37,976 nt of DNA from Chloroherpetonaceae bacterium (lineage in GTDB: Bacteria; Bacteroidota; Chlorobiia; Chlorobiales; Chloroherpetonaceae), in NCBI GenBank assembly GCA_028277445.1, contig JANQGG010000022.1:1-37976 (forward strand), in the 5' to 3' direction. Under the pieces are notes generated by a model, which was not told the origin of the DNA, did not search any database, and saw nothing but the letters and a program-made list of their open reading frames with translations. Shown here piece by piece: positions 6,044-35,938 of this stretch; the stretch's first letter is position 1, and the number at the start of each line of letters is the position of its first letter. The position numbers were made by a program, and so were the translations under genes.

Positions 6044-6964
6044 ATGAAAGTAGGTATAGTTGGCGCAGGATTTGTAGGCGCTACGGCTGCATTTGCAATG
6101 GCCATGCGCGGTTCGTGCAGTGAAATTGTAATTGTTGATATAGATCGTAAGAAAGCCAATGCTCAGGCAAGCGATATCCAACATGCGGTACCGTTCTCCA
6201 AAGTAATGACTGTAAGAGATGGCCAATACAGCGACCTAGCAGGAGCAAAAGTTATTTTCATCACTGCAGGCGTTAATCAGCAGCCTGGTGAAACGCGCTT
6301 GCATCTATTGGAACGAAACGCGGCAATTTTTAAAGCCATTGTTCCGGAAATTGTCGGCGTTGAGCCAAATGCTGTCATTGTTGTTGCTACAAACCCGGTT
6401 GATATCCTTACAAGCATCACCGAACAATTAGCAAATTTGCCGCCCGGTCAGGTGCTTGGTTCGGGAACTACGCTTGATACGGCCAGGCTGAGGGCTTTAA
6501 TTGGCGCTCATATTGAAATTGATCCTCAGCATGTTCATGCCTATGTTATTGGTGAACATGGCGATAGCGAGGTAATTGCGTGGGACAGCGCTATTGTTGC
6601 CGGCCTGAAATTATCGGATTATTGTAAATCCAGATCCATCACCTGGAATGATGAGATTAAAACACAAATTGCCGACAATGTTCGCAACGCCGCATACCAA
6701 ATTATTCAAGGCAAAGGCGCTACGTATTATGGCATTGGGGCAGTTCTGGCACGAATCGCGGAAGTTATTATTAAAAATCATCGAGCAGTCTTAACCGTAT
6801 CCATGACCAGTTCGCCCTACGAAGTTGCCCTATCGCTTCCCAGATTGGTTGGCGGTAATGGGGTTATTGATTTGATCGGCATTGAATTAACCCCGGATGA
6901 ACGCACAGCCTTTGAAAAAAGCGCAGATATTTTAAACCAAGCTTTAAAGCAAATACATTTTTAA
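6044..6964 (+). CDS. ldh: L-lactate dehydrogenase (LDH/MDH family)
   Basis: 306-residue NAD-dependent 2-hydroxyacid dehydrogenase interconverting pyruvate and L-lactate. The Rossmann nucleotide motif is GAGFVGAT (residues 7-14). Catalytic residues are recognisable by family alignment: R85 in the mobile loop (NQQPGETR), D145 and R148 in LDTAR, and H172 in GEHGDS. The substrate-specificity position (LDH numbering 102) is Gln79 in AGVNQQPGETR. Gln is diagnostic of lactate dehydrogenase, whereas malate dehydrogenases, including those typical of green sulfur bacteria, carry Arg. Length fits the family (about 310). It sits between a membrane protein gene and a secreted propeller gene, and its cotranscription with either is only implied by short spacing (26 and 30 bp). 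Confidence 0.88.
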   Translation: MKVGIVGAGFVGATAAFAMAMRGSCSEIVIVDIDRKKANAQASDIQHAVPFSKVMTVRDGQYSDLAGAKVIFITAGVNQQPGETRLHLLERNAAIFKAIVPEIVGVEPNAVIVVATNPVDILTSITEQLANLPPGQVLGSGTTLDTARLRALIGAHIEIDPQHVHAYVIGEHGDSEVIAWDSAIVAGLKLSDYCKSRSITWNDEIKTQIADNVRNAAYQIIQGKGATYYGIGAVLARIAEVIIKNHRAVLTVSMTSSPYEVALSLPRLVGGNGVIDLIGIELTPDERTAFEKSADILNQALKQIHF

Positions 6965-6994: not shown

Positions 6995-8881
6995 ATGGGA
7001 AACATTAGATCGGTTTTATTGATTTTAATCGTGCTTTTACCTTTTTCCGCGCATGCTCAAAAGCGCGAGTGGATTTCATACAACGCCGGTTTACCCTCAA
7101 ATGAAATCTCAAGCATTGCTATTGATAGAAACAGCGCCAAATGGATCGGCACATTTGCCGGCCTTGCCAAATATGACGGCTTTTCCTGGAAAGCATTTAA
7201 CACTTTAAATTCACCGCTTCCTTCAAACCAGATTGAGTGTGTCATCATTGATCAAAAACAGAGGAAATGGATTGGGATGTTTAATGGCGGGCTTGCCGTT
7301 TATGACGATAAAAAATGGCGATTATACAACAGATCCAATTCCAAATTACCCTCGAATTACGTGGAAAGTATTGCCATCGACAAAAAAGGCAAAGTTTGGA
7401 TCGGGACATGGAGTGGGGTAGCGGTGCTCCATAAGCGGAAGTGGAAAGTTTATACCATGAAAAACTCCAAGCTGCCTTACGATAAAATCTCTTCAATTGC
7501 TGTCGATAATGATAATAATGTCTGGATCGGCACAACCAATGGCGGGCTTGCCAAAGTTGATAATAAAAACCGTTGGACGGTTTATAATACCTCAAATTCA
7601 AATCTGCATTCCAACTCCGTTCATGCCCTGAGCATCGATAACGATGGAAAATTGTGGGTGGGTATGCAAAGCTTTAAAGGTGAAGGCGGCATATCGGTGT
7701 TTGATGGCAAAACCTGGAAACTCCACCGCCCATCCAACGAAGCTTTGGGTTCTAATGATATCAATTGTATCGTTACGGATGAAAATAACCGCAAATGGAT
7801 TGGCGTGGGAACCGATCGACCGTTTTTAGGCGGCGATGGCGGCGTACTGGTGCATGATAACAATAACTGGTCGATTTATTCACCCATCAATTCCAATTTG
7901 CCGCACGATAGAGTCAATGCAATAGCTATTGATGAAAATCAACATGCCTGGATTGGTACGAGCAACGGACTAGCCAAATTTGACGGCAATTCATGGACGG
8001 TCTTCAGCTACTCAAATTCAGGGTTACCGGACAGGCATGTTAATTCTATTGAAATGGATGCCGGCGGTTTTGTCTGGGTCGCTACGGATCGTGGTTTGGC
8101 AAAACATGTTCAGGATCAATGGCGGGTTTATACCAAAGATAATTCATCGATTAAAGCCGATAAAATCAGCGACATGGCATTTGATAAAAACGATGATTTA
8201 TGGATGGTCAGTTCAAACACCTTAATGCACTTAACCAGAGGTAATTTAAAGTCTTATGTTATTCCAGATACGTTTCGTGTGAGGCAAATAAATAACATTG
8301 TTATCGATAAATCTTCAACAAAATGGTTATGCACGGATGAAGGGTTGCTTGAATTTAATCAGGGTAAATGGCAAATGTTTACTCGATATAATTCCAAACT
8401 TCCTCACAATCATGTTTTAACTGTTAAGCAAGATCGCCAGGGAATGTGGATTGGCACGCTAGGCGGTTTGGTTTATAAAAATGGCGAGCAATGGACCATT
8501 TACGATATCAATAATTCGGATTTACCTTCCAATTATATTTTCTCAATTAACATTGATGGCGCTAAAAATAAATGGATCGGAACCTGGAACGGCCTTTGCA
8601 AATACGACGGGAAAAAATGGACCATTTATTCACCGGCAAACACGCAATTGCCGGATAGTCGAATTTACACCCTGGCTATTGATGAGTTCGGTTACAAATG
8701 GATCGGGACATTGGGCGGGTTGGTTCAGTTCGATGGCCTAGACTGGAAAGTGTATAACACGTTTAATTCGGGCATTTCATCCAACGATGTCAGCCAAATT
8801 GAAATTGATCGTATGGGAAATATCTGGGTTGGCACTAGAAGCAATGGTATTAGCATTTTAAAAGCCAGCCGGCCGGAATAA
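6995..8881 (+). CDS. Secreted two-component-regulator-type beta-propeller protein, 14 repeats
   Basis: 628 residues with a signal peptide (MGNIRSVLLILIVLLPFSAHA, cut near residue 21). The rest consists of about 14 tandem repeats of some 42 residues. The repeat has the form W-x-x-Y-N-x-x-N-S-x-L-P-S-N, then I-x-x-I-A-I-D, then W-I-G-T-x-x-G-L-A-K-F-D-G. These are 'two-component regulator propeller' (ligand-binding sensor) repeats, normally found as the periplasmic sensor of hybrid kinases. Fourteen repeats would fold as two seven-bladed propellers. No Y_Y_Y domain, membrane helix, kinase or sorting domain follows, and the protein ends right after the last blade. It is therefore a free periplasmic or exported propeller of unknown ligand. 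A bidirectional terminator begins 43 bp downstream. Confidence 0.88.
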   Translation: MGNIRSVLLILIVLLPFSAHAQKREWISYNAGLPSNEISSIAIDRNSAKWIGTFAGLAKYDGFSWKAFNTLNSPLPSNQIECVIIDQKQRKWIGMFNGGLAVYDDKKWRLYNRSNSKLPSNYVESIAIDKKGKVWIGTWSGVAVLHKRKWKVYTMKNSKLPYDKISSIAVDNDNNVWIGTTNGGLAKVDNKNRWTVYNTSNSNLHSNSVHALSIDNDGKLWVGMQSFKGEGGISVFDGKTWKLHRPSNEALGSNDINCIVTDENNRKWIGVGTDRPFLGGDGGVLVHDNNNWSIYSPINSNLPHDRVNAIAIDENQHAWIGTSNGLAKFDGNSWTVFSYSNSGLPDRHVNSIEMDAGGFVWVATDRGLAKHVQDQWRVYTKDNSSIKADKISDMAFDKNDDLWMVSSNTLMHLTRGNLKSYVIPDTFRVRQINNIVIDKSSTKWLCTDEGLLEFNQGKWQMFTRYNSKLPHNHVLTVKQDRQGMWIGTLGGLVYKNGEQWTIYDINNSDLPSNYIFSINIDGAKNKWIGTWNGLCKYDGKKWTIYSPANTQLPDSRIYTLAIDEFGYKWIGTLGGLVQFDGLDWKVYNTFNSGISSNDVSQIEIDRMGNIWVGTRSNGISILKASRPE

Positions 8882-11073: not shown

Positions 11074-12135
11074 ATGTCAAAAAAAATAGCGGTTGTAGTT
11101 ACTACATATGGGGAGGTTGAACATTTAACGCTGAGTGAATTATATCACAATTCAAGGCGAATTATTAACTTTATAACCGATCAGATCACTTCATTAAGCC
11201 CGTCAATGAAAATTGCTATTGCATTGTTTAGAAGTATAAAGCGCAAAGTTCATTGGTCTATGAAGGGTTATAAGTCCAATCTCTGTAAGATCACACACGG
11301 TCAGGTTATATGCCTTCAAAAAGCCTTCAATCAGCATAATAATGGTTTTGTTGAAGATGCCAAGGTTGATGTTTTTGAAGGTTATTTTTTTTCTAAGCCT
11401 TATTTGGAAGACACACTTGCCAGGCTTGATACGTATGATCATATTATCGTTTTAACCATGCTTCCTATTGAATCTGCATTTTCCTGTGGTGTAGCCTGCA
11501 AAATTGCCCAAGAACATTTAACACCGGAAAAACAATCGAATGTAGATCTTATAGGTAGTCTATGGAACGACGATGAGCTAATACAAATCTTCCTTAATCA
11601 CATCCATACATCTCTTCTTGAGTCATCTATTGCTCCTGATGATCCCGAACTAGGTTTAATACTTTCCGTTCATGGCACATTAATTGCCGATAAAGAGGGC
11701 AAGCCGTATGAAATAGAAACCGGCCTGGATCAAACAAAAGCATTTTATGAGCGTGTCAAAAAGGCCATTGAACAAGATTCACGTTTCAATGTGAAATCCC
11801 TTAAACTTGGTTGTATTAATCATCATTTTGGTGGTCAATGGACTATTGAATCCCTGGAAAAAGCGATCTCTGAGCTTCAATCCGAAAATGTTCAACATGT
11901 TGCCTTATTCCCATTTGGTTTTTTTGCCGATAACAGTGAAATCGACTTGGAGGCCAAACAAAAATTATTAAGCGCCGGGTTTGCCAAAGCACAATATATC
12001 AATGCCGTAAATAGTTCGGATGATTTCATGAATTGGATCTTTAAGCGTTTGGTTCGCCGGATAAATTGGTATTTAAATGTTGAAAAAGCCATTGAGAAAT
12101 TTAGCATTGCCTATTATTCTGAAAACCAGTCCTAA
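11074..12135 (+). CDS. Divergent ferrochelatase-like protein (HemH/chelatase family)
   Basis: 353 residues. The N terminus (KIAVVVTTYGE) and the overall layout resemble class II ferrochelatases, which insert Fe2+ into protoporphyrin or coproporphyrin. The chelatase His is probably H200 in LSVHGT (equivalent to the SFHG motif). The acidic metal-path residue is probably E289 in GFFADNSEIDLEAK (equivalent to the GFxxDxxET motif). The stretch NHHFGGQWTIESLEKAISEL (about 250-269) corresponds to the conserved QSRFG-x-x-W-L-x-P region, but with the QSR lost. The divergence leaves open a different metal or tetrapyrrole, such as a cobalt- or siroheme-type chelatase. It ends 19 bp before odhA, so the two are probably cotranscribed. 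Family assignment is moderately sure; substrate is not. Confidence 0.62.
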   Translation: MSKKIAVVVTTYGEVEHLTLSELYHNSRRIINFITDQITSLSPSMKIAIALFRSIKRKVHWSMKGYKSNLCKITHGQVICLQKAFNQHNNGFVEDAKVDVFEGYFFSKPYLEDTLARLDTYDHIIVLTMLPIESAFSCGVACKIAQEHLTPEKQSNVDLIGSLWNDDELIQIFLNHIHTSLLESSIAPDDPELGLILSVHGTLIADKEGKPYEIETGLDQTKAFYERVKKAIEQDSRFNVKSLKLGCINHHFGGQWTIESLEKAISELQSENVQHVALFPFGFFADNSEIDLEAKQKLLSAGFAKAQYINAVNSSDDFMNWIFKRLVRRINWYLNVEKAIEKFSIAYYSENQS

Positions 12136-12154: not shown

Positions 12155-15100
12155 ATGGCGCTTTCAAAGGACATGATTGAAAAATTGGTTGCCTTGTTTG
12201 GTACAAATTCTTCATTTGTGCTCGATATGTATGAACAGTATACTCTAAAGCCTGAAAGCATAAAAAAAAGCTGGGTTGATTTTTTTCGTGATGTAGAACA
12301 GAACAAAATAGATTTTTCATCCCCCATCACCGAATCCAGTCAGTGGTATCATGATCCGGTTTCTTCAAAAATACACATCAAAGAAAAGCATGAGTCTTTG
12401 GTTGAACTTCCAAAAGAAGGGTCTTTAAAGATTCCAGAGTTTAATGAAGAGGATCATTTAGGCGCATTGGTTGGCGCTCAGGCTAAGATTGTTCAAAACA
12501 TGACCCAAAGTTTATCGATTCCAACAGCAACTTCGGTTCGAAACGTCCCGGTCATCGTTTTAGATGAAAATCGCCGTATCATGAATCAATACATGAGCAC
12601 AGTTTCGGGCGCAAAAGTTGCCTTTACACATATTATAGCTTGGGCAATCGTTAAGGCCTTGGTAAAATTTCCATCCCTAAATTCGTTTTTTGCCATTAAA
12701 GACGGAAAACCCTATAAAATTCAAAAAGACGATATCAATCTTGGGCTTGCCATTGATCTGCCGCGTAAAGATGGCTCAAGAATGCTTGTGGTTCCGAGCA
12801 TTAAAAAAGCTCAATCAATGGATTTTAAACAGCTCTTTTCGGCTTATAACGCCATTGTTTCAAAGGCACGTACCGGAAAGCTGGATGTGGATGATTTTCA
12901 GGGAACGACGGCTTCGCTGACCAATCCCGGAACACTGGGTACGGTTTTTTCTTTTCCGCGTTTGATGAACGGCCAGGGAATTATTGTCGCTACCGGAGCG
13001 ATTGACTATGCCACGGAATTTCAGGCCATGAATCAAACCTTGCTTTCACAGTTGGGGATCAGTAAAATTATGACCCTCACCAACACCTATGATCACCGAA
13101 TCATTCAAGGCGCAGAATCCGGGGCATTTTTAGGCTACATTCATAAGCTTTTATTGGGTGAAGATCAGTTTTACTACGAGATTTTTTCCAGTTTGAGCAT
13201 GCCCTACAAGCCATGGAGTTATAGCAAAGACCAATCACCATCGCTTGAAGGGGTAGGCAATACCGACGAATTGATCATTAAACAAGCCAGAGTATTGCAA
13301 TTGATTAATGCGTATCGCGTGCGAGGGCACTTGATTGCAAATACCAACCCCTTGTACTACCTGCCTCAATATCATTTGGAGCTTGATCCTGATTATTATG
13401 GATTTACAATTTGGGATTTGGATCGTGAATTTATTGCCGTAGGATTTACTGAAAAGCCTAAACACAAATTAAGGGATATAATTGATCGGCTTCGAAGCGC
13501 CTATTGCGATAAAATAGGGGTGGAGTACATGTACATCCAATCCATTGATGAAAAACGGTGGCTTCAAAATCGTGTTGAGCCAAAAGAATCCCAGCAAACG
13601 TTCAGCCCTAAATTAAAACAGCGTATTCTGAGTTATTTGCTTCGGGCCGAACAATTCGAACGTTACTTACATACTAAATTCTTAGGTCATAAACGATTTT
13701 CAGTAGAAGGCGCAGAGTCGGTAATAGCCATTCTTGATTTTTTAATTGATTATGCCGGGGAGTGTTTTACCGAAGAAGTTGTTTTTGGGATGTCGCATCG
13801 GGGGCGGATCAATGTTTTGGCCAATATTATCGGCAAGCCTTATCATAAACTTTTCGCGGAATTTATAGACAAGTCATTGCCTATGGATTCGCATGATCTT
13901 ATTCATGGTTCAGGCGATGTTAAATATCATTTAGGCGCTTCTGGAACGCGTCAAACCCGGGATGATAGGGAAGTGAAGCTTTGGCTAGCATCAAATCCAA
14001 GCCACCTGGAAGCCGTATGCCCTGTTGTTGAAGGGGTTGCCAGAGCCAAACAAGATCAAAATAAACATCTTGGGGGCTCAAGCGTGCTGCCGGTGCTTTT
14101 ACACGGCGATGCTGCTTTTAGCGGTCAGGGGGTGGTTGCCGAAACATTTAATCTCTCGCAACTTGAAGGATATACCACCAAAGGTACAATACACATCGTC
14201 ATAAACAATCAAATCGGTTTTACAACCGTACCTCATGATGCACGCTCTTCGCATTATGCAACGGATGTTGCCAAAATGGTTCAAGCCCCTGTGTTTCATG
14301 TCAATGGAGACGATCCCGAAGCGTGCATTCGTGTAACGCGCCTGGCATTGGATTACCGCTTGAGATTTAACAAAGACGTGGTGATTGATTTGGTGTGTTA
14401 TCGAAAGCATGGTCATAATGAAGGCGATGATCCCTCATATACGCAACCCAAGCTTTACAATCTCATAAAAGCCAAATCTTCAACAGCAGAAATTTATGCC
14501 AAAAGGCTTTTAAACGAGGCGACAATTTCTCAAGATGATTTGGATTCGATACATCAAGACATAAAAGCCGAAATGGATGAAGCTTTTGAGATGGCCAAAA
14601 AAAATACGGAGGCTATAGATATTAAAGCCGACCCGATTACATTGCCCGAATTTATACCGCCAATCAGTAAAAGCCCTGAAACTTTGGTTTCATCAGAGAT
14701 TTTGCAACGCATCACCAAATCCAGTTTGGATTGGCCCGATTGGCTCCACCCGAATCCTAAACTTGCCAAACAATTCAGGCGAAGAGAAGCATTACTTGAG
14801 CGTCCTGAAACGGTAACCCTGGATTGGGCGTTTGCCGAAACCCTGGCGTTCGGTTCGTTGCTTCTGGAAGGCTTTAATGTTCGATTAAGCGGTCAGGATT
14901 CCACACGCGGCACATTTAGCCAAAGGCACTTGGCGTTGTTCGATATGGAGTCGGAAAAACCTTATATCCCGCTTCAACATCTTGATGACAATCAAGGTGA
15001 GCTTTTTGTCTATGATAGCATGCTTTCGGAAGCTGCCGTAATGGGATTTGAATTTGGCTACAGCATTGCCGATCCTAAAGCGCTTGTGATTTGGGAAGCG

Positions 15101-15838
15101 CAATTTGGTGATTTTGTCAATGGGGCACAAGTCATCATCGATCAGTTTTTAACTAGTTCTGAATCCAAATGGGGTCAATGCTCAGGTTTGGTGCTCTTAT
15201 TGCCGCATGGCTATGAAGGCCAAGGCCCGGAGCACTCTTCTGCCAGGATGGAACGATTCCTCCAACAATGCGCTAATGCAAATATGCAACTATGCAATTG
15301 CACAACGCCCGCACAATATTTTCATCTTTTGCGTCGCCAGGTTCGTTCAGGCAATTTAAAACCCTTAATTATTATGACCCCTAAAAGCCTGTTGCGAAAT
15401 CCACAAGCTGTTTCACCCTTAAAGGATTTTACGGGCGATAAATTTCATAATGCATTGGATGATTCTATTGTGATAAATAATCCGCGAAAAGTTATATTAT
15501 GCAGCGGCAAAATATACTACGATTTAATTAAGGAGCGGCAAAATAAAAGCATTAACGATGTTGCGATTATTCGGCTGGAGCAAATTTACCCGTATCCGAG
15601 AATTAAAATCAACGTGTTATTGAATAAATATCAATCGGCATCTAAAATTGTTTGGGCTCAGGAAGAACCCCGTAATATGGGCGCCTGGCACTTTGTTTCT
15701 CCAATGCTTTCGGAACAAATAAAAGATCATCAAACGTTAGAATATGCTGGTAGAGATGTAAAATCAAGTCCTGCTTCGGGCCGTTTAAGCATCCACGAAA
15801 AGGAACAATCCGGAATTCTCAGTGACGCGCTATCATAA
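12155..15838 (+). CDS. odhA: Fused 2-oxoglutarate dehydrogenase E2-E1 (OdhA/Kgd type)
   Basis: 1227 residues, the length of mycobacterial Kgd (about 1230). Domains: a short N-terminal E1o helix (1-45, LVALFGTNSSFVLDMYEQY); an E2 succinyltransferase-type catalytic domain (about 100-345) ending in TYDHRIIQGAESG, where Gln replaces the Asp of the usual HxxxDG motif, as in Kgd; and the thiamine-diphosphate E1 domain (about 380-1227). E1 landmarks are YRVRGHLIANTNPL (about 387), GMSHRGRINVLANI, the ThDP region HGDAAFSGQGV (about 650) to NNQIGFTT (about 685), GHNEGDDPSYTQP (about 752) and PHGYEGQGPEHSSAR. There is no lipoyl domain, so a lipoylated E2 must be supplied in trans. It oxidatively decarboxylates 2-oxoglutarate toward succinyl-CoA, opposite to the reductive TCA step expected in an ATP-citrate lyase organism. 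Confidence 0.93.
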   Translation: MALSKDMIEKLVALFGTNSSFVLDMYEQYTLKPESIKKSWVDFFRDVEQNKIDFSSPITESSQWYHDPVSSKIHIKEKHESLVELPKEGSLKIPEFNEEDHLGALVGAQAKIVQNMTQSLSIPTATSVRNVPVIVLDENRRIMNQYMSTVSGAKVAFTHIIAWAIVKALVKFPSLNSFFAIKDGKPYKIQKDDINLGLAIDLPRKDGSRMLVVPSIKKAQSMDFKQLFSAYNAIVSKARTGKLDVDDFQGTTASLTNPGTLGTVFSFPRLMNGQGIIVATGAIDYATEFQAMNQTLLSQLGISKIMTLTNTYDHRIIQGAESGAFLGYIHKLLLGEDQFYYEIFSSLSMPYKPWSYSKDQSPSLEGVGNTDELIIKQARVLQLINAYRVRGHLIANTNPLYYLPQYHLELDPDYYGFTIWDLDREFIAVGFTEKPKHKLRDIIDRLRSAYCDKIGVEYMYIQSIDEKRWLQNRVEPKESQQTFSPKLKQRILSYLLRAEQFERYLHTKFLGHKRFSVEGAESVIAILDFLIDYAGECFTEEVVFGMSHRGRINVLANIIGKPYHKLFAEFIDKSLPMDSHDLIHGSGDVKYHLGASGTRQTRDDREVKLWLASNPSHLEAVCPVVEGVARAKQDQNKHLGGSSVLPVLLHGDAAFSGQGVVAETFNLSQLEGYTTKGTIHIVINNQIGFTTVPHDARSSHYATDVAKMVQAPVFHVNGDDPEACIRVTRLALDYRLRFNKDVVIDLVCYRKHGHNEGDDPSYTQPKLYNLIKAKSSTAEIYAKRLLNEATISQDDLDSIHQDIKAEMDEAFEMAKKNTEAIDIKADPITLPEFIPPISKSPETLVSSEILQRITKSSLDWPDWLHPNPKLAKQFRRREALLERPETVTLDWAFAETLAFGSLLLEGFNVRLSGQDSTRGTFSQRHLALFDMESEKPYIPLQHLDDNQGELFVYDSMLSEAAVMGFEFGYSIADPKALVIWEAQFGDFVNGAQVIIDQFLTSSESKWGQCSGLVLLLPHGYEGQGPEHSSARMERFLQQCANANMQLCNCTTPAQYFHLLRRQVRSGNLKPLIIMTPKSLLRNPQAVSPLKDFTGDKFHNALDDSIVINNPRKVILCSGKIYYDLIKERQNKSINDVAIIRLEQIYPYPRIKINVLLNKYQSASKIVWAQEEPRNMGAWHFVSPMLSEQIKDHQTLEYAGRDVKSSPASGRLSIHEKEQSGILSDALS

Positions 15839-15874: not shown

Positions 15875-17674
15875 ATGACCTTAAAAAAACTAGTTTTTCT
15901 TACAGGTACCCTACTGAGTATGATGTGTTTTCAGAGCGGTCATACGCAAACCCTTCAAGACACAACTGGCAAAGCATTAAAGCCGGCGAAAGTTGATTCA
16001 TCTCAAATATACTGGACACAGGGTATGGCTTTGCTTGAAAAAAAACAATTTAAAGATGCCTTAGTCCCGTTTAAAGCTCTTATAAAATTAGACCCGGATT
16101 TTTCAGAAGCATTTCTGGCTTTAAGCGTAACCTATGTTCGATTGGAGCAATACCCGGAAGCTGTCAAGTATTTAAATCAAGCCATTAAACTTGATCCGAA
16201 AAATGGTGAAAACTATGTAACCTATGGGCTTTTGAACATGCGTCTTGAAAACTACCATGATGCCGTAAAAGCCCTTAAACAAGCCAACGACTATAAACCG
16301 AACGATCCCGGGATTTTATTATCCCTTGCCGAGTCGCAATCACATATCAAAGATTATTCAAACGCAAAAGTAAATTTTGAAAAAGTCTTAAGTTTGGATA
16401 GCGCCAATTTAGACGCAAAAATCGGTTTGGGTCATATCTTAATTCATCAATCCAGACATTCAGAGGCGCTTGCTCATTTTCAAACGCTTAAACTCAAACA
16501 TCCTGACAATCTTGAAGTGTTGCTTGGTATTGCCAAAGCCAAACAGCATTTGAACGACATGTCTTCGTCGGAAACCATTTATCGTAATGTTCTGAGAAAA
16601 AACAAACAATCGGTTAAAGCTTATGAAGGATTGGGCGAGTTATACCTCAAACAGAAACAATACAAAAAAGCAGAAAACGCGTTTAAAGAAGCCTTGACCT
16701 TAAAATCAAATGCGGCTTCAATATTACACAAACTCGGCCTTGTGTTTTTCGAACAAAAAAAGTACAACAATGCACTCATGGCGTTTGAAGAATCGGCCAG
16801 AATTAATCCTTCTAACCTCAAAGCCAAATATTATTTAGGTACGATTTACTACATCCAGGGCAAATATACTTGGTCTATCGAAAAGTATAAGCAAATTTTA
16901 AAAGCAAATCCTAACAACGCCGATTTAAATTACAATATCGGTAATGTGTATTTTATGCTGAACCAGTATAGCCAAGCCATTGCTTATTTTCAGAACGCGA
17001 TTAAACTCAGTCCGAATGTACCGGATTACTATTACAATCTGGGAAAATCATACGTGAGGCTGAACCGGGATAATGACGCCGTTATTAATTATAAAAAAGC
17101 CTTTGATCTGGATCCAACCTTTGTTGAAGCGGGTTATAATCTTGGCTTGGCTTTAAAACGGCTCAACAAAAAACAAGAGGCATTAGAGGCATTCAAAAAA
17201 GTCATCAAACAAAAACCCAATGATGCGGATGCACATTTCAGTTATGGAAAGCTTTTGGTAGAGTTTGGAAAGTATACAGAGGCATTGTCATCTCTTGAAA
17301 TTGTAAAAAATGCATTGCCGGATAATCCTGAAGCCCATTTTGTTCATGGATTAACGCTTTTAAAAACAGGCCAACATAAAAGCGCCGTTTCAGCGTTTGA
17401 ACGTGTCATTCGTTTGAACCCGGATTATACAAACGCTTACTACAATATGGCTCAAGCGTATAGTAAGTTGGGATTAAAACGAAAAATGATCTATACCTAT
17501 AAAGAAGTTATTAAGCGAAAACCTTATGATCCGATAGCGTTGTTAAATCTTGGATTGGGGTATTTGCAAATGAAAAACATAGGCGAAGCTCAAAAAGTAC
17601 TTAAACAACTTGAAAAAGTTGATTTAGGGATGGCCGAAGAACTTAAAGAACAAATAAAAGCAACTAAGAAATAA
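15875..17674 (+). CDS. Exported TPR-repeat protein (about 15 TPRs)
   Basis: 599 residues with a signal peptide (LVFLTGTLLSMMCFQSGHTQ, ending near residue 25). It is then built almost entirely of tetratricopeptide repeats of 34 residues (about 45-590), with the typical W/L-G-Y-A-P pattern seen in blocks such as YYNLGKSYVRL and AIKLDPKNGENY. There is no enzymatic domain. TPR arrays bind peptides or proteins; periplasmic ones often assemble envelope complexes. It starts 36 bp after odhA and 15 bp before a second TPR gene. Several blocks closely match the TPR protein at 18438-19553 (shared NLGKSYVRL and YNLGLA segments), so the genes are probably paralogous. Confidence 0.87.
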   Translation: MTLKKLVFLTGTLLSMMCFQSGHTQTLQDTTGKALKPAKVDSSQIYWTQGMALLEKKQFKDALVPFKALIKLDPDFSEAFLALSVTYVRLEQYPEAVKYLNQAIKLDPKNGENYVTYGLLNMRLENYHDAVKALKQANDYKPNDPGILLSLAESQSHIKDYSNAKVNFEKVLSLDSANLDAKIGLGHILIHQSRHSEALAHFQTLKLKHPDNLEVLLGIAKAKQHLNDMSSSETIYRNVLRKNKQSVKAYEGLGELYLKQKQYKKAENAFKEALTLKSNAASILHKLGLVFFEQKKYNNALMAFEESARINPSNLKAKYYLGTIYYIQGKYTWSIEKYKQILKANPNNADLNYNIGNVYFMLNQYSQAIAYFQNAIKLSPNVPDYYYNLGKSYVRLNRDNDAVINYKKAFDLDPTFVEAGYNLGLALKRLNKKQEALEAFKKVIKQKPNDADAHFSYGKLLVEFGKYTEALSSLEIVKNALPDNPEAHFVHGLTLLKTGQHKSAVSAFERVIRLNPDYTNAYYNMAQAYSKLGLKRKMIYTYKEVIKRKPYDPIALLNLGLGYLQMKNIGEAQKVLKQLEKVDLGMAEELKEQIKATKK

Positions 17675-18437: not shown

Positions 18438-19553
18438 ATGAAAAGCTTTTATGGATTATTGTGGCTGATATTATTAGGTATATCCCTTGATTTAAATGCT
18501 CGCGAACACCCTAATAGCGAGTTACAACCCAGACCGGACCTCAGAAATAAAATCGCTACTATCCAGAAGTTGCCTCAATCTATGGCTTCCCAAGAGTTTT
18601 TTAAGTTAGGGAATCAATTTTTGAAGGATAAAGACTATTATAGAGCGGCAATTTTATTTAAAGCGGCTACTCAGGCCAACCCCCTCCATCGTAGTGCCTA
18701 TTATAATTTGGGGACATCCAGTTACCTCTCAGGAAATTATGAAGATGCGTTAGCGGCCTTTACGATTGCTTTGAAATTAAACCCGTCCGACACTGAAGCT
18801 ATTTACGGCCTGGGGTTGGCTCATTTTAATTTAGGGCACTACATTTCAAGTGTTGAAGCCTTTGAGCTGGTTGTTGAAAAAAATCCGGGCGATTTGGATG
18901 CCTATTACAACCTTGGGAAAAGCTATGTGCGTTTAGGTAATAATAAAAAAGCCGTCAAAGCCTATAAAAAAGCGCTGTCAATAAACCCTGCCTTCAAGAA
19001 AGCCAATTACAACTTGGGGTTAGCATTCATGCGAACCTTTAATTGCCAGGAAGCAATTGGAATTTTTGAACCATTAGCGCAATCCTATCCATCGGACTTT
19101 GAATTATTCTTTTTACTGGGTCGTTGCCATGAACACGTTGGAAACTACCAACAAGCTATTCAAAACTACAACACGGCGTTATCTTCGGATCAAATCAAAC
19201 AAAATGTGTATTATCGTTTAGGTTTAAGTTATACCGCAATAAAGGATTACAATAAAGCGATTGAATCCTACAAACGTGCCATTTATTTGAAAGATCATGA
19301 AGTTGAAAGCTATTATAACATTGGCGTTATTTACAATGAACTAAAAGACTACACAAAATCGGCATACTACTTTAATCAGGTGGTAAAAAAAGACCCGAAT
19401 CACGTGTTGGGTTATAGCAATTTAGCGTTTGTGTATCTTCAAAACGGTAATATGAAGGGCGCCATAAAAGCCTATAAAACCATTAAACAAATTGATAATG
19501 CGTTAGCCGGTTCATTGTTTTCTGACATTCAGGCTAAACATATCAAAAACTAG
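18438..19553 (+). CDS. Exported TPR-repeat protein
   Basis: 371 residues with a signal peptide (MKSFYGLLWLILLGISLDLNA, ending near residue 21) and about eight to nine TPR units from about 50 to 360. The block DAYYNLGKSYVRLGNN followed by YNLGLAFMR is nearly the same as a block in the first TPR protein (YYYNLGKSYVRLNRD...YNLGLALKRL), which indicates a duplication. The 133-bp gap to the previous gene may hold its own promoter. An inverted repeat lies 16 bp after its stop. Probably periplasmic; partners unknown. Confidence 0.85.
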   Translation: MKSFYGLLWLILLGISLDLNAREHPNSELQPRPDLRNKIATIQKLPQSMASQEFFKLGNQFLKDKDYYRAAILFKAATQANPLHRSAYYNLGTSSYLSGNYEDALAAFTIALKLNPSDTEAIYGLGLAHFNLGHYISSVEAFELVVEKNPGDLDAYYNLGKSYVRLGNNKKAVKAYKKALSINPAFKKANYNLGLAFMRTFNCQEAIGIFEPLAQSYPSDFELFFLLGRCHEHVGNYQQAIQNYNTALSSDQIKQNVYYRLGLSYTAIKDYNKAIESYKRAIYLKDHEVESYYNIGVIYNELKDYTKSAYYFNQVVKKDPNHVLGYSNLAFVYLQNGNMKGAIKAYKTIKQIDNALAGSLFSDIQAKHIKN

Positions 19554-32841: not shown

Positions 32842-34038
32842 ATGGCAAAAATCCTTGAAGGAACGGCGATGAAGTTTTTTCAAAAATGGGGAATACCCAC
32901 GCCTTCCTATGTAGTGATCATGAATCCTGATAAGCTCAAACAGCTTGCAGAAGCCAACAAATGGATGCACGAATCCAAATTGGTTGTCAAAGCGCATGAA
33001 GCTATCGGTGGTCGTTTTAAATTAGGGCTCGTAAAGCTTGGGTTGAATCTGGAAGAAGCTGATGCAGCTGTTCGTGAAATGATCGGCAAAAAAGTCGGTA
33101 CATCCGAAATCAAGCAGGTCATTATTGCAGAACAGTTGGAGCACGATGAAGAATATTATATCTCGATTCACTCCAATCGTTACGGATCCGAACTACTACT
33201 GAGCAAGTATGGTGGTGTTGATGTTGAAGAAAATTGGGATAAGGTCCAACGTCTTGACATTGGTATTGATGAAACACCGACTAAAGAACAACTGACTGAT
33301 TTGGCTTTAAAAGCAGGATTTAATGGCGATATTGCTGATCGTGTAGCAAAAATTGCTGGCAGGCTTCAGCTTTGCTTCGAAAACGAAGATGCTCAATCTA
33401 TTGAAATCAATCCGCTTGTTATCCGCAAAAGCGACATGCGTTTTGCAGCCTTGGATGCGGTAATGAATGTAGATTGGGATGCTCGTTACCGTCACCCGGA
33501 TTGGGATTTCAAACCGGTTTCTGAAATCGGCCGTCCTTACTCCGAAGCCGAACTTCAAATCATGGACATCGATTCCCGAATTAAAGGATCGGTTAAATTT
33601 GTAGAAGTTCCAGGTGGGGAAGTGGCTCTACTACCTGCCGGCGGCGGTGCATCGGTATTCTATTCTGATGCGGTTGTTGCTCGTGGTGGAACCATTGCCA
33701 ACTACGCCGAATACTCTGGTGATCCACCAGACTGGGCTGTTGAAGCTTTAACTGAAACCGTCTGTGCCTTGCCAAATATCAAACACGTTATTGTGGGTGG
33801 TGCTATTGCTAACTTCACAGATGTTAAAGCTACCTTTACCGGTATCATTAATGGGTTTAGAGCCAGTAAAGATAAAGGTTTAATGGACGGCGTTAAAATT
33901 TGGGTACGCCGCGGTGGCCCAAATGAACTGGCCGGTCTGGAAATGATGCGAAAACTCGCTGAAGAAGGTTTCGATATTCATGTCTTCGACCGATCCATGC
34001 CATTAACCGATATTGTCGATTTGGCAATGAGTTCTTAA
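32842..34038 (+). CDS. aclB: ATP-citrate lyase small (beta) subunit
   Basis: 398 residues, the same length as AclB of green sulfur bacteria. With AclA it cleaves citrate with CoA and ATP into acetyl-CoA and oxaloacetate, the key step of the reductive TCA cycle. The N-terminal part (1-240) is an ATP-grasp domain related to succinyl-CoA synthetase beta (start MAKILEGTAMKFFQKWGIPT; Mg/ATP region IEINPLVIRKSD at about 189-200). The C-terminal part (about 250-398) is the citrate-binding domain, with the Gly-rich stretch LLPAGGGASVFYSD (about 264-277). The start has no Shine-Dalgarno sequence. aclA follows 52 bp downstream and the pair ends in a strong terminator. Confidence 0.96.
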   Translation: MAKILEGTAMKFFQKWGIPTPSYVVIMNPDKLKQLAEANKWMHESKLVVKAHEAIGGRFKLGLVKLGLNLEEADAAVREMIGKKVGTSEIKQVIIAEQLEHDEEYYISIHSNRYGSELLLSKYGGVDVEENWDKVQRLDIGIDETPTKEQLTDLALKAGFNGDIADRVAKIAGRLQLCFENEDAQSIEINPLVIRKSDMRFAALDAVMNVDWDARYRHPDWDFKPVSEIGRPYSEAELQIMDIDSRIKGSVKFVEVPGGEVALLPAGGGASVFYSDAVVARGGTIANYAEYSGDPPDWAVEALTETVCALPNIKHVIVGGAIANFTDVKATFTGIINGFRASKDKGLMDGVKIWVRRGGPNELAGLEMMRKLAEEGFDIHVFDRSMPLTDIVDLAMSS

Positions 34039-34090: not shown

Positions 34091-35938
34091 GTGAGCATAC
34101 TTGTAAATAAAAACTCTCGTGCAGTTATCATTGGCGGTAGAGCTGGTCTTAATGCTGCAAAACGCATGGCAGAGTTCGACTTTTTATGCGATAAACCTCT
34201 GACCGTACAAGCTTTTGTATACCCGCCTGAACAAGGGCAGCAAAAAGAAATTTATCATGGCGCCCGTATTGAAAATATTGCGGTTTACTCCAGTCTTGAA
34301 CCAGCTTTAAGCGAAAATCCCGATATTGATGTTGCATTGATTTATATTGGCGCTGAACGCGCGTACGACGCTGCTAAACAAGCTTTAGAAGCCGACAATA
34401 TCCGTCTGGTATCCATGATTACCGAAGGTGTACCGGAGCGCGACTCCAAGCGCCTGGCTAAAATTGCCCAGGAAAAAGGCAAAATCTTTAATGGCCCTTC
34501 ATCCATTGGTATCCTTTCTGCCGGAATGTGCCGTTTGGGTGTTATCGGTGGTGAGTTCAACAACCTTAAAAAATGTTTGTTGTATCGTCCGGGTTCCTTT
34601 GGTGTAATCACCAAATCAGGTGGTTTGTCTAACGAAACTATGTGGCTTTGTGCCCAGAATGGTGATGGTATTTCAACTACCGTAAGTATTGGTGGTGATG
34701 CCTATCCGGGTACTGATTTTGTAACTTACCTCGAAATGTTTGAAAACGACCCTGAAACCAAGGCAGTAGTTTTGGTGGGTGAAGTAGGTGGAAGCCTTGA
34801 AGAAGAAGCAGCCGAATGGCTCAAGAAGGAAAAACGCCGCATTCGACTGATTGCCGTTGTTGGTGGTACATGTCAGGAAGTATTACCTCAGGGTATGAAA
34901 TTTGGTCACGCCGGTGCTAAAGAAGGTAAAGGCCATTCCGGTTCAGCCCGCTCTAAAATGGAGAAACTGGCCGAAGCTGGTGCATTGGTACCTGATACAT
35001 TCGGTGGTTTGAGCAAATGCATCAAGCAGGTTTATGAAGAACTAAAAGCCGAAGGCATCATTCAGCCTGAACCAGAAGTTGATGACGCCGTGCTCCCTGA
35101 ATTGCCAAAACGCGTTCAGGAAGTTATGAAAGAAGGCGAAGTTGTGGTTGAACCGTTGGTTCGCACCACAATTGCAGACGACCGGGGCGAAGAACCGCGC
35201 TATATGGGTTACCCTGCTTCCGAGCTTTGTAAAAACGGATATGGTATTGAACATACCATCGGATTGCTCTGGGGCAAACGATTACCGTCCGATGAAGAAG
35301 CTGAAATTATCAAGCGCATTATTATGATCTCGGCAGATCACGGCCCAGCGGTTTCAGGCGCTTTCGGAACTATTATTGCTTCTTGTGCCGGAATTGATAT
35401 GCCTCAGGCGGTTTCAGCTGGTATGACGATGATTGGCCCACGTTTTGGCGGCGCCGTTACCGATGCCGGAAAATACTTCAAAATGGGCGCTGAAGAATAC
35501 CCGAACGATATTCCCGGGTTTTTAGCATGGATGAAGAAAAATGTGGGACCTGTTCCCGGAATTGGTCACCGCGTTAAGAGCGTGAAAAATCCTGATCAGC
35601 GTGTGAAATATTTAGTCGACTATGTGAAAAATCACACCAATTTACATACGCCGGTTTTAAATTTTGCGCTTGAAGTCGAAAAAGTGACCACATCCAAAAA
35701 AGGCAACCTGATCTTAAATGTTGATGGTACGATGGGATGTATTTTGGTTGATTTGGGTTATCCGTCGCATACCTTGAACGGATTCTTTGTATTAGCCAGA
35801 ACCATCGGTATGATCGGCCACTGGATTGATCAAAAAGAACAAAATTCACGACTCATTCGTCTTTACGACTACCTCATTAACTATGCCGTTAAAGATGAAC
35901 GTGAAGTGCCAAACATGATGACTAAAGAGGAAGCTTAA
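34091..35938 (+). CDS. aclA: ATP-citrate lyase large (alpha) subunit
   Basis: 615 residues (family about 610), starting at GTG. An N-terminal CoA-binding, succinyl-CoA-synthetase-alpha-like part (1-340) carries the phosphohistidine, H273, in KFGHAGAKEGKGHSGSA. A C-terminal citrate-synthase-like domain (about 390-600) carries ADHGPAVSGAFGT (about 416-428) and PGIGHRVKSVKNPDQR (about 489-504). No nearer ATG fits the family start (SILVNKNSRAVIIGG), so the GTG is well supported. The gene lies directly after aclB. Confidence 0.96.
   Translation: MSILVNKNSRAVIIGGRAGLNAAKRMAEFDFLCDKPLTVQAFVYPPEQGQQKEIYHGARIENIAVYSSLEPALSENPDIDVALIYIGAERAYDAAKQALEADNIRLVSMITEGVPERDSKRLAKIAQEKGKIFNGPSSIGILSAGMCRLGVIGGEFNNLKKCLLYRPGSFGVITKSGGLSNETMWLCAQNGDGISTTVSIGGDAYPGTDFVTYLEMFENDPETKAVVLVGEVGGSLEEEAAEWLKKEKRRIRLIAVVGGTCQEVLPQGMKFGHAGAKEGKGHSGSARSKMEKLAEAGALVPDTFGGLSKCIKQVYEELKAEGIIQPEPEVDDAVLPELPKRVQEVMKEGEVVVEPLVRTTIADDRGEEPRYMGYPASELCKNGYGIEHTIGLLWGKRLPSDEEAEIIKRIIMISADHGPAVSGAFGTIIASCAGIDMPQAVSAGMTMIGPRFGGAVTDAGKYFKMGAEEYPNDIPGFLAWMKKNVGPVPGIGHRVKSVKNPDQRVKYLVDYVKNHTNLHTPVLNFALEVEKVTTSKKGNLILNVDGTMGCILVDLGYPSHTLNGFFVLARTIGMIGHWIDQKEQNSRLIRLYDYLINYAVKDEREVPNMMTKEEA

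Follow-up and report, generated by a model that had tools for sequence, protein, structure and literature searches.

A fused OdhA/KGD-type 2-oxoglutarate dehydrogenase encoded alongside ATP-citrate lyase in a Chloroherpetonaceae bacterium

The 37,976-nucleotide stretch analysed here (the window) is contig JANQGG010000022.1 (C60 in our numbering) of the Chloroherpetonaceae bacterium assembly GCA_028277445.1, from the order Chlorobiales. On its forward strand, the open reading frame at 12155-15838 starts with ATG and encodes a protein of 1227 residues, an OdhA/KGD-type 2-oxoglutarate dehydrogenase in which the acyltransferase (E2o) and the thiamine diphosphate (ThDP)-dependent component (E1o) are fused. 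This gene, odhA, most likely encodes an NAD-linked enzyme that receives its lipoyl group in trans and works oxidatively beside the ferredoxin-linked KorAB. We assign a probability of about 0.8 to the full proposal, namely that OdhA is an oxidative 2-oxoglutarate dehydrogenase drawing on a shared E2 hub for its lipoyl group and belonging to an old fusion lineage inherited within Chlorobiales.

The fused enzyme and its conserved residues

The Pfam domains of OdhA follow the order 2-oxogl_dehyd_N, 2-oxoacid_dh catalytic, E1_dh, Transket_pyr and OxoGdeHyase_C. An N-terminal helix domain (residues 13-49, positions 12191-12301; PF16078, 36.9 bits) precedes the E2o acyltransferase domain (residues 105-333, 12467-13153; PF00198, E = 6e-45). 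The E1 portion consists of the ThDP-binding domain (residues 506-818, 13670-14608; PF00676, 186 bits), the transketolase pyrimidine-binding domain (residues 889-1081, 14819-15397; PF02779) and the 2-oxoglutarate dehydrogenase C-terminal domain (residues 1087-1226, 15413-15832; PF16870, E = 1.5e-45). Neither a Biotin_lipoyl nor an E3-binding domain was found in a Pfam scan of the 1227 residues. The protein reaches 1700 bits with the NCBIfam model NF008907, 'multifunctional oxoglutarate decarboxylase / dehydrogenase / succinyltransferase' (cut-off 878), and its residues 13-1225 match Mycobacterium smegmatis KGD (PDB 8p5r, 1165 bits) and Corynebacterium glutamicum OdhA (8p5t, 1096 bits). The window OdhA is a member of the known OdhA/KGD family. 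A first-pass annotation, made from the letters of the window, had described an E2-E1 fusion without a lipoyl domain in the same window as ATP-citrate lyase, and these matches bear it out.

Residue conservation was scored in an alignment of 96 fused OdhA proteins, and the motifs were aligned to solved chains. The E2 catalytic His314 and the OdhA-specific Gln318 lie in the motif DHRIIQG (13094-13108). The histidine is invariant (96/96), and glutamine occupies the position of Gln318 in 95 of the 96 proteins; stand-alone E2s have aspartate there (DHRxxDG). Phe339 (13169-13171), which aligns with the PCI phenylalanine Phe340 of C. glutamicum OdhA in 8p5t, is likewise invariant in all 96. The element containing this phenylalanine has been described as a structural motif of E2 enzymes from Actinobacteria (PMC10415282). 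In the E1 portion, the histidines of the HRGR, KYHLGA, GHNEGDD, EHSSAR and SHLEAV motifs are conserved without exception (96/96); His548, His592 and His754 of the ThDP-binding domain and His1027 of the pyrimidine-binding domain are invariant.

The domain order, the missing lipoyl domain, the DHRxIQG motif, the conserved E1 histidines and the position of Phe340 are all shared with C. glutamicum OdhA and M. smegmatis KGD (8p5t, 8p5r, 2xt6); identity to the latter is 52% over the E2 and junction part. The differences lie in the host, here a phototroph of the Chlorobiales, and in the E1 partners, which here have fused alpha and beta chains.

Partner enzymes and the supply of the lipoyl group

The genome was searched for the partners named in the first-pass annotation, a lipoylated E2, Lpd and KorAB. 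We found one lipoylated E2, one Lpd above the equivalog cut-off and KorAB, as well as citrate synthase; the E2 and lpd, whose absence the annotation had considered fatal to its proposal, are both present. All six PF00364 matches in the genome could be identified. Three are biotin carriers, among them AccB (biotin carboxyl carrier protein); the others are a carboxylase subunit, a GcvH-like protein and a single E2. This E2, on contig C8, has 452 residues and comprises lipoyl (DIATDKVDAEV), E3-binding and catalytic domains. Its best solved match is the E2p chain 9y7v; among NCBIfam models, SucB_Actino scores highest, with 393 bits (cut-off 423). A lipoyl synthase-like (LipA) gene follows it after 81 bases. 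A multi-haem cytochrome gene lies upstream of the E2 on the same contig (locus L054, 492-2138, forward strand). The genome also encodes two E1 proteins of about 700 residues with fused alpha and beta chains, which matched pyruvate-type E1 models below cut-off. It therefore seems that three E1s rely on a single lipoyl E2 and a single Lpd.

In the proposed mechanism, the E1o part of OdhA would decarboxylate 2-oxoglutarate on ThDP and then succinylate a lipoyl-lysine that OdhA itself does not contain. The lipoyl arm would be supplied in trans by the C8 E2, the only lipoylated E2 of the genome. From this arm the E2o part of OdhA would transfer succinyl to CoA, and the lipoyl group would then be re-oxidised with NAD+ by the one Lpd. 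The C8 E2 would also serve the two alpha/beta-fused E1s, which are probably of pyruvate/branched-chain type. Since one E2 would have to serve OdhA and two fused E1s, a shared dehydrogenase hub is expected, resembling the actinobacterial hybrid of pyruvate dehydrogenase and 2-oxoglutarate dehydrogenase (PDH-ODH). From the gene set we infer lipoyl transfer in trans, assembly of the hub and the direction of flux.

In the E2 tree, the partner E2s of Chlorobiales, those of OdhA-bearing Bacteroidota and Acidobacteriota, and actinobacterial E2p form one clade (support 96/95), which is separate from the second E2s of the same genomes, from Escherichia coli SucB and from Chlorobiaceae SucB. The C-terminal tails differ between these groups. 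Canonical E2s end in [DNQ]P followed by a hydrophobic end (8/9), and in actinobacterial E2s the fourth residue after the helix is phenylalanine (6/6). Four of the six Acidobacteriota partner E2s share this phenylalanine; the remaining two have tryptophan as the second residue. In Chlorobiales the tail is (S/G)Y(N/S/D) in all seven partner E2s, and the other partner E2s of Bacteroidota mostly have an aromatic residue at the second position. The tail of the C8 E2, SYNEHTVL, is of neither the (A/E)GxF nor the canonical P-hydrophobic type. Taken together, these tails point to a pairing of OdhA with an E2 lacking the canonical tail that extends beyond Actinobacteria. Four Acidobacteriota E2s (L193, L196, L197 and L200) have their phenylalanine at the actinobacterial E2p site (SGQF, AGQF, NTQF) and end right there. 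The E2p insertion was reportedly first defined in a PNAS paper of 2021; a three-residue insertion in the Chlorobiales tail is not demonstrable from length alone.

These tails also bear on the form of the E2 core. Actinobacterial OdhA is described as invariably associated with an E2p unable to build large cores (PMC10581250). It is possible, and the strongest of the alternatives, that OdhA uses the C8 E2 while this E2 assembles into an ordinary 24- or 60-mer, so that lipoyl arms are shared without a trimeric hub of the actinobacterial style. The SYNEHTVL tail, which is not GxF, and the lack of an obvious three-residue insertion would fit such a core, but the tail is also without the [DNQ]P and hydrophobic end of canonical E2s, and the C8 E2 falls within the clade of actinobacterial E2p. 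We regard the large core as doubtful.

The actinobacterial PDH-ODH (AceE, AceF, Lpd, OdhA; PMC10581250, PMC10415282) is like the system proposed here from gene content in having OdhA, one Lpd and one lipoylated E2, and its E2p belongs to the same clade as the C8 E2. It is unlike it in the tail, which is (A/E)GxF there and (S/G)Y(N/S/D) here. The SucA-SucB-Lpd system of E. coli and Chlorobiaceae shares the overall reaction and a homologous E1o core, but has an unfused E1 of 911-1005 residues, adjoining SucB and Lpd, a canonical E2 tail and a place in a separate clade. KorAB of green sulfur bacteria interconverts the same metabolite pair and is encoded here too; it is of unrelated architecture, ferredoxin-linked and reversible, and works in the reductive direction.

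The reductive tricarboxylic acid (TCA) cycle set of green sulfur bacteria (ATP-citrate lyase, KorAB and pyruvate:ferredoxin oxidoreductase, PFOR) is present in the genome, as are the FMO bacteriochlorophyll a protein, a separate citrate synthase and a COX1 match (haem-copper oxidase). This gene content allows the TCA cycle to run in both directions. The oxidative, NAD-linked branch would consist of OdhA, citrate synthase and, in this species, the haem-copper oxidase; alongside it would stand a reductive, ferredoxin-dependent branch made up of ATP-citrate lyase, KorAB and PFOR. The 2-oxoglutarate dehydrogenase step is close to irreversible, and OdhA is therefore not expected to take part in the reverse cycle.

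Several points weigh against the proposed oxidative enzyme with a shared hub. The partner E2 does not have the GxF tail of the actinobacterial type. The single-E2 claim is based on searches with PF00364 and with the E2 domain of OdhA, and PF00198 was not run genome-wide. PDH-ODH contains AceE, whereas alpha/beta-fused E1s were found here; homodimeric AceE was not searched for. Finally, G001, the nearest relative and the only one of the same family in our genome set, matches the FMO, ATP-citrate lyase, KorAB, PFOR and citrate synthase families, and a COX1 search there gave no match. Because G001 retains odhA all the same, aerobic respiration cannot be the sole role of the enzyme, and other roles have to be weighed, for example in the supply of succinyl-CoA or in metabolism in the dark.

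KGD-family enzymes have decarboxylase and carboligase side activities in vitro. These activities, together with the presence of odhA and absence of a COX1 match in G001, would accommodate an enzyme whose main activity is lipoyl-independent decarboxylation or carboligation of 2-oxoglutarate, outside any dehydrogenase, with succinic semialdehyde or 2-hydroxy-3-oxoadipate as product. We consider this improbable: a pure decarboxylase would have no need of the E2o domain and catalytic histidine that all 96 fused proteins retain, and a lipoylated E2 of the matching clade, LipA and Lpd are all encoded in the genome.

Distribution and origin of the fusion

Genome contigs were scanned with an alignment of the E2-junction part. 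Among the matches listed, fused loci with 50-56% identity occur in Acidobacteriota, Ignavibacteria, Kapaibacteria, Balneolaceae, a metagenome-assembled genome (MAG) of Salinivenus and Actinobacteria, and the best matches outside Chlorobiales are from Acidobacteriota and Ignavibacteria. In an independent survey with PF16870 over 394 genomes of Bacteroidota, the matches listed include open frames of about 1200-1380 residues, from some 20 families, and shorter ones of about 900-1000 residues, from four families. The first-pass annotation, which held the fusion to be best known from Actinobacteria, was right about the OdhA/KGD type and too narrow about its range, as the fusion is widespread in Bacteroidota and also occurs in Acidobacteriota. 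Two loci group away from their titles: L107, titled Chlorobiaceae BC.017, with Ignavibacteria, and L099, titled Bradyrhizobiaceae, with a family of Bacteroidota. Both are probably from mislabelled or mixed MAGs.

Within Chlorobiales, three families (f1-f3) carry the fusion. The fourth (f4, the Chlorobiaceae-type majority) has an unfused E1 of 911-1005 residues, or pieces of one, in 32 of 49 genomes and none or a fragment in the others; where checked, this E1 adjoins SucB and Lpd. In two genomes of one other genus, G013 and G019, odhA is frame-broken, with E2o and E1o in different frames (L012, 107-3900; L011, 1498-5266); this could be real fission, decay or sequencing error. A third genome of that genus, G005, has an intact odhA.

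The E1 tree (77 rows, quick method) was assessed by SH-aLRT support; the fused set was partly collected by E2o similarity, which favours close forms. A single branch (support 99) separates all the fused proteins from the rest, and the loci derived from the PF16870 survey (L221-L235) join the fused clade too. The fused OdhAs of Chlorobiales form a clade of their own (100), as do, separately, those of Actinobacteria (96). The E1s of f4 lie outside this clade, beside SucA of E. coli, and not with the fused proteins. A constraint uniting the Chlorobiaceae E1 with the fused Chlorobiales E1 was rejected (AU p 1.4e-15), which rules out one E1o descending vertically across all Chlorobiales.

Recent horizontal transfer of odhA from Actinobacteria, an origin raised in the first-pass annotation, has in its favour that the best solved structures are actinobacterial and that the literature consulted describes the fusion from Actinobacteria only. 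The tree argues otherwise: the Chlorobiales clade stands apart from the actinobacterial one, and a constraint joining the two as one clade was rejected (AU p 6.8e-6); under the model applied, this refutes such a transfer as far as E1 is concerned. In addition, the nearest matches outside the order, among those listed, are from Acidobacteriota and Ignavibacteria, and local synteny is kept in G001. We regard a recent transfer as very unlikely. The fusion design looks ancient rather than recently borrowed, and odhA would have come down through Chlorobiales from an old fusion lineage common to Bacteroidota, Acidobacteriota and Actinobacteria. Deeper branching among the phyla is weakly supported, and gain, loss and old transfers are therefore not separable. 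That odhA is unexpressed or decaying, as the broken frames in G013 and G019 might suggest, is scarcely credible here, as its motifs are fully conserved and the gene is intact in this genome; of the ten other Chlorobiales genomes that have the fusion with both parts on a single contig, eight also have it intact.

Genomic setting and implications

The genome of 3.42 Mb is 99% complete and 0.08% contaminated, and tblastn comparison shows that the order of ferrochelatase-like gene, odhA, tetratricopeptide repeat (TPR) genes, nuo and acl is kept in G001. An assembly chimera was judged unlikely on these grounds. The ferrochelatase-like gene (11074-12135, forward strand; PF00762) ends 19 bases 5' of odhA. 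Its product is divergent, scoring below the TIGR00109 cut-off; in G001, too, the gene immediately precedes odhA, and in G003 it lies close to odhA. Two TPR-repeat proteins (15875-17674 and 18438-19553, forward strand) are encoded between odhA and the nuo cluster, with about 33-35% identity to the G001 counterpart. The ATP-citrate lyase genes follow 17 kb downstream of odhA, behind a run of NADH-quinone oxidoreductase genes; on the forward strand, 32842-34038 encodes the subunit with ATP-grasp and citrate-binding domains (PF16114, PF24948) and 34091-35938 the subunit with CoA-ligase and citrate synthase-like domains (PF00549, PF00285). Further upstream on the same strand, 6044-6964 is L-lactate dehydrogenase-like (TIGR01771, 356 bits against a cut-off of 304) and could be a malate dehydrogenase-type homologue, and 6995-8881 weakly resembles PorZ of type IX secretion (196 bits, cut-off 260).

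Structural and cell-biological work has treated both fused OdhA and the modified E2p as actinobacterial features (PMC10415282, PMC10581250). A phylogeny of carbon fixation in Chlorobiales covers KorAB, ATP-citrate lyase and others (PMC9560492), and a text search of that paper for 'oxoglutarate dehydrogenase' found nothing. We found nothing pertinent in the literature on OdhA outside Actinobacteria or on 2-oxoglutarate dehydrogenase in Chloroherpeton; subscription papers were not covered, and an earlier mention is possible.

Judged by sequence, the family and its partner E2 range well beyond Actinobacteria. We tentatively propose, at odds a little short of even, that the hybrid hub, in which fused OdhA and pyruvate/branched-chain E1s would share a reduced lipoyl E2 of non-canonical type, is an ancient paired module of Actinobacteria, Acidobacteriota and Bacteroidota including the phototrophic Chlorobiales, replaced whole by an E. 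coli-type SucA-SucB-Lpd in Chlorobiaceae. If this is true, the hub with fused OdhA is no actinobacterial invention. The fusion, the boundary phenylalanine and related tail-altered E2s in Bacteroidota and Acidobacteriota place the origin of the architecture earlier and provide new organisms for its study. Two arrangements of one TCA step within a single order of phototrophs carrying reverse-cycle enzymes would offer a natural comparison for how the cycle may be run in both directions.

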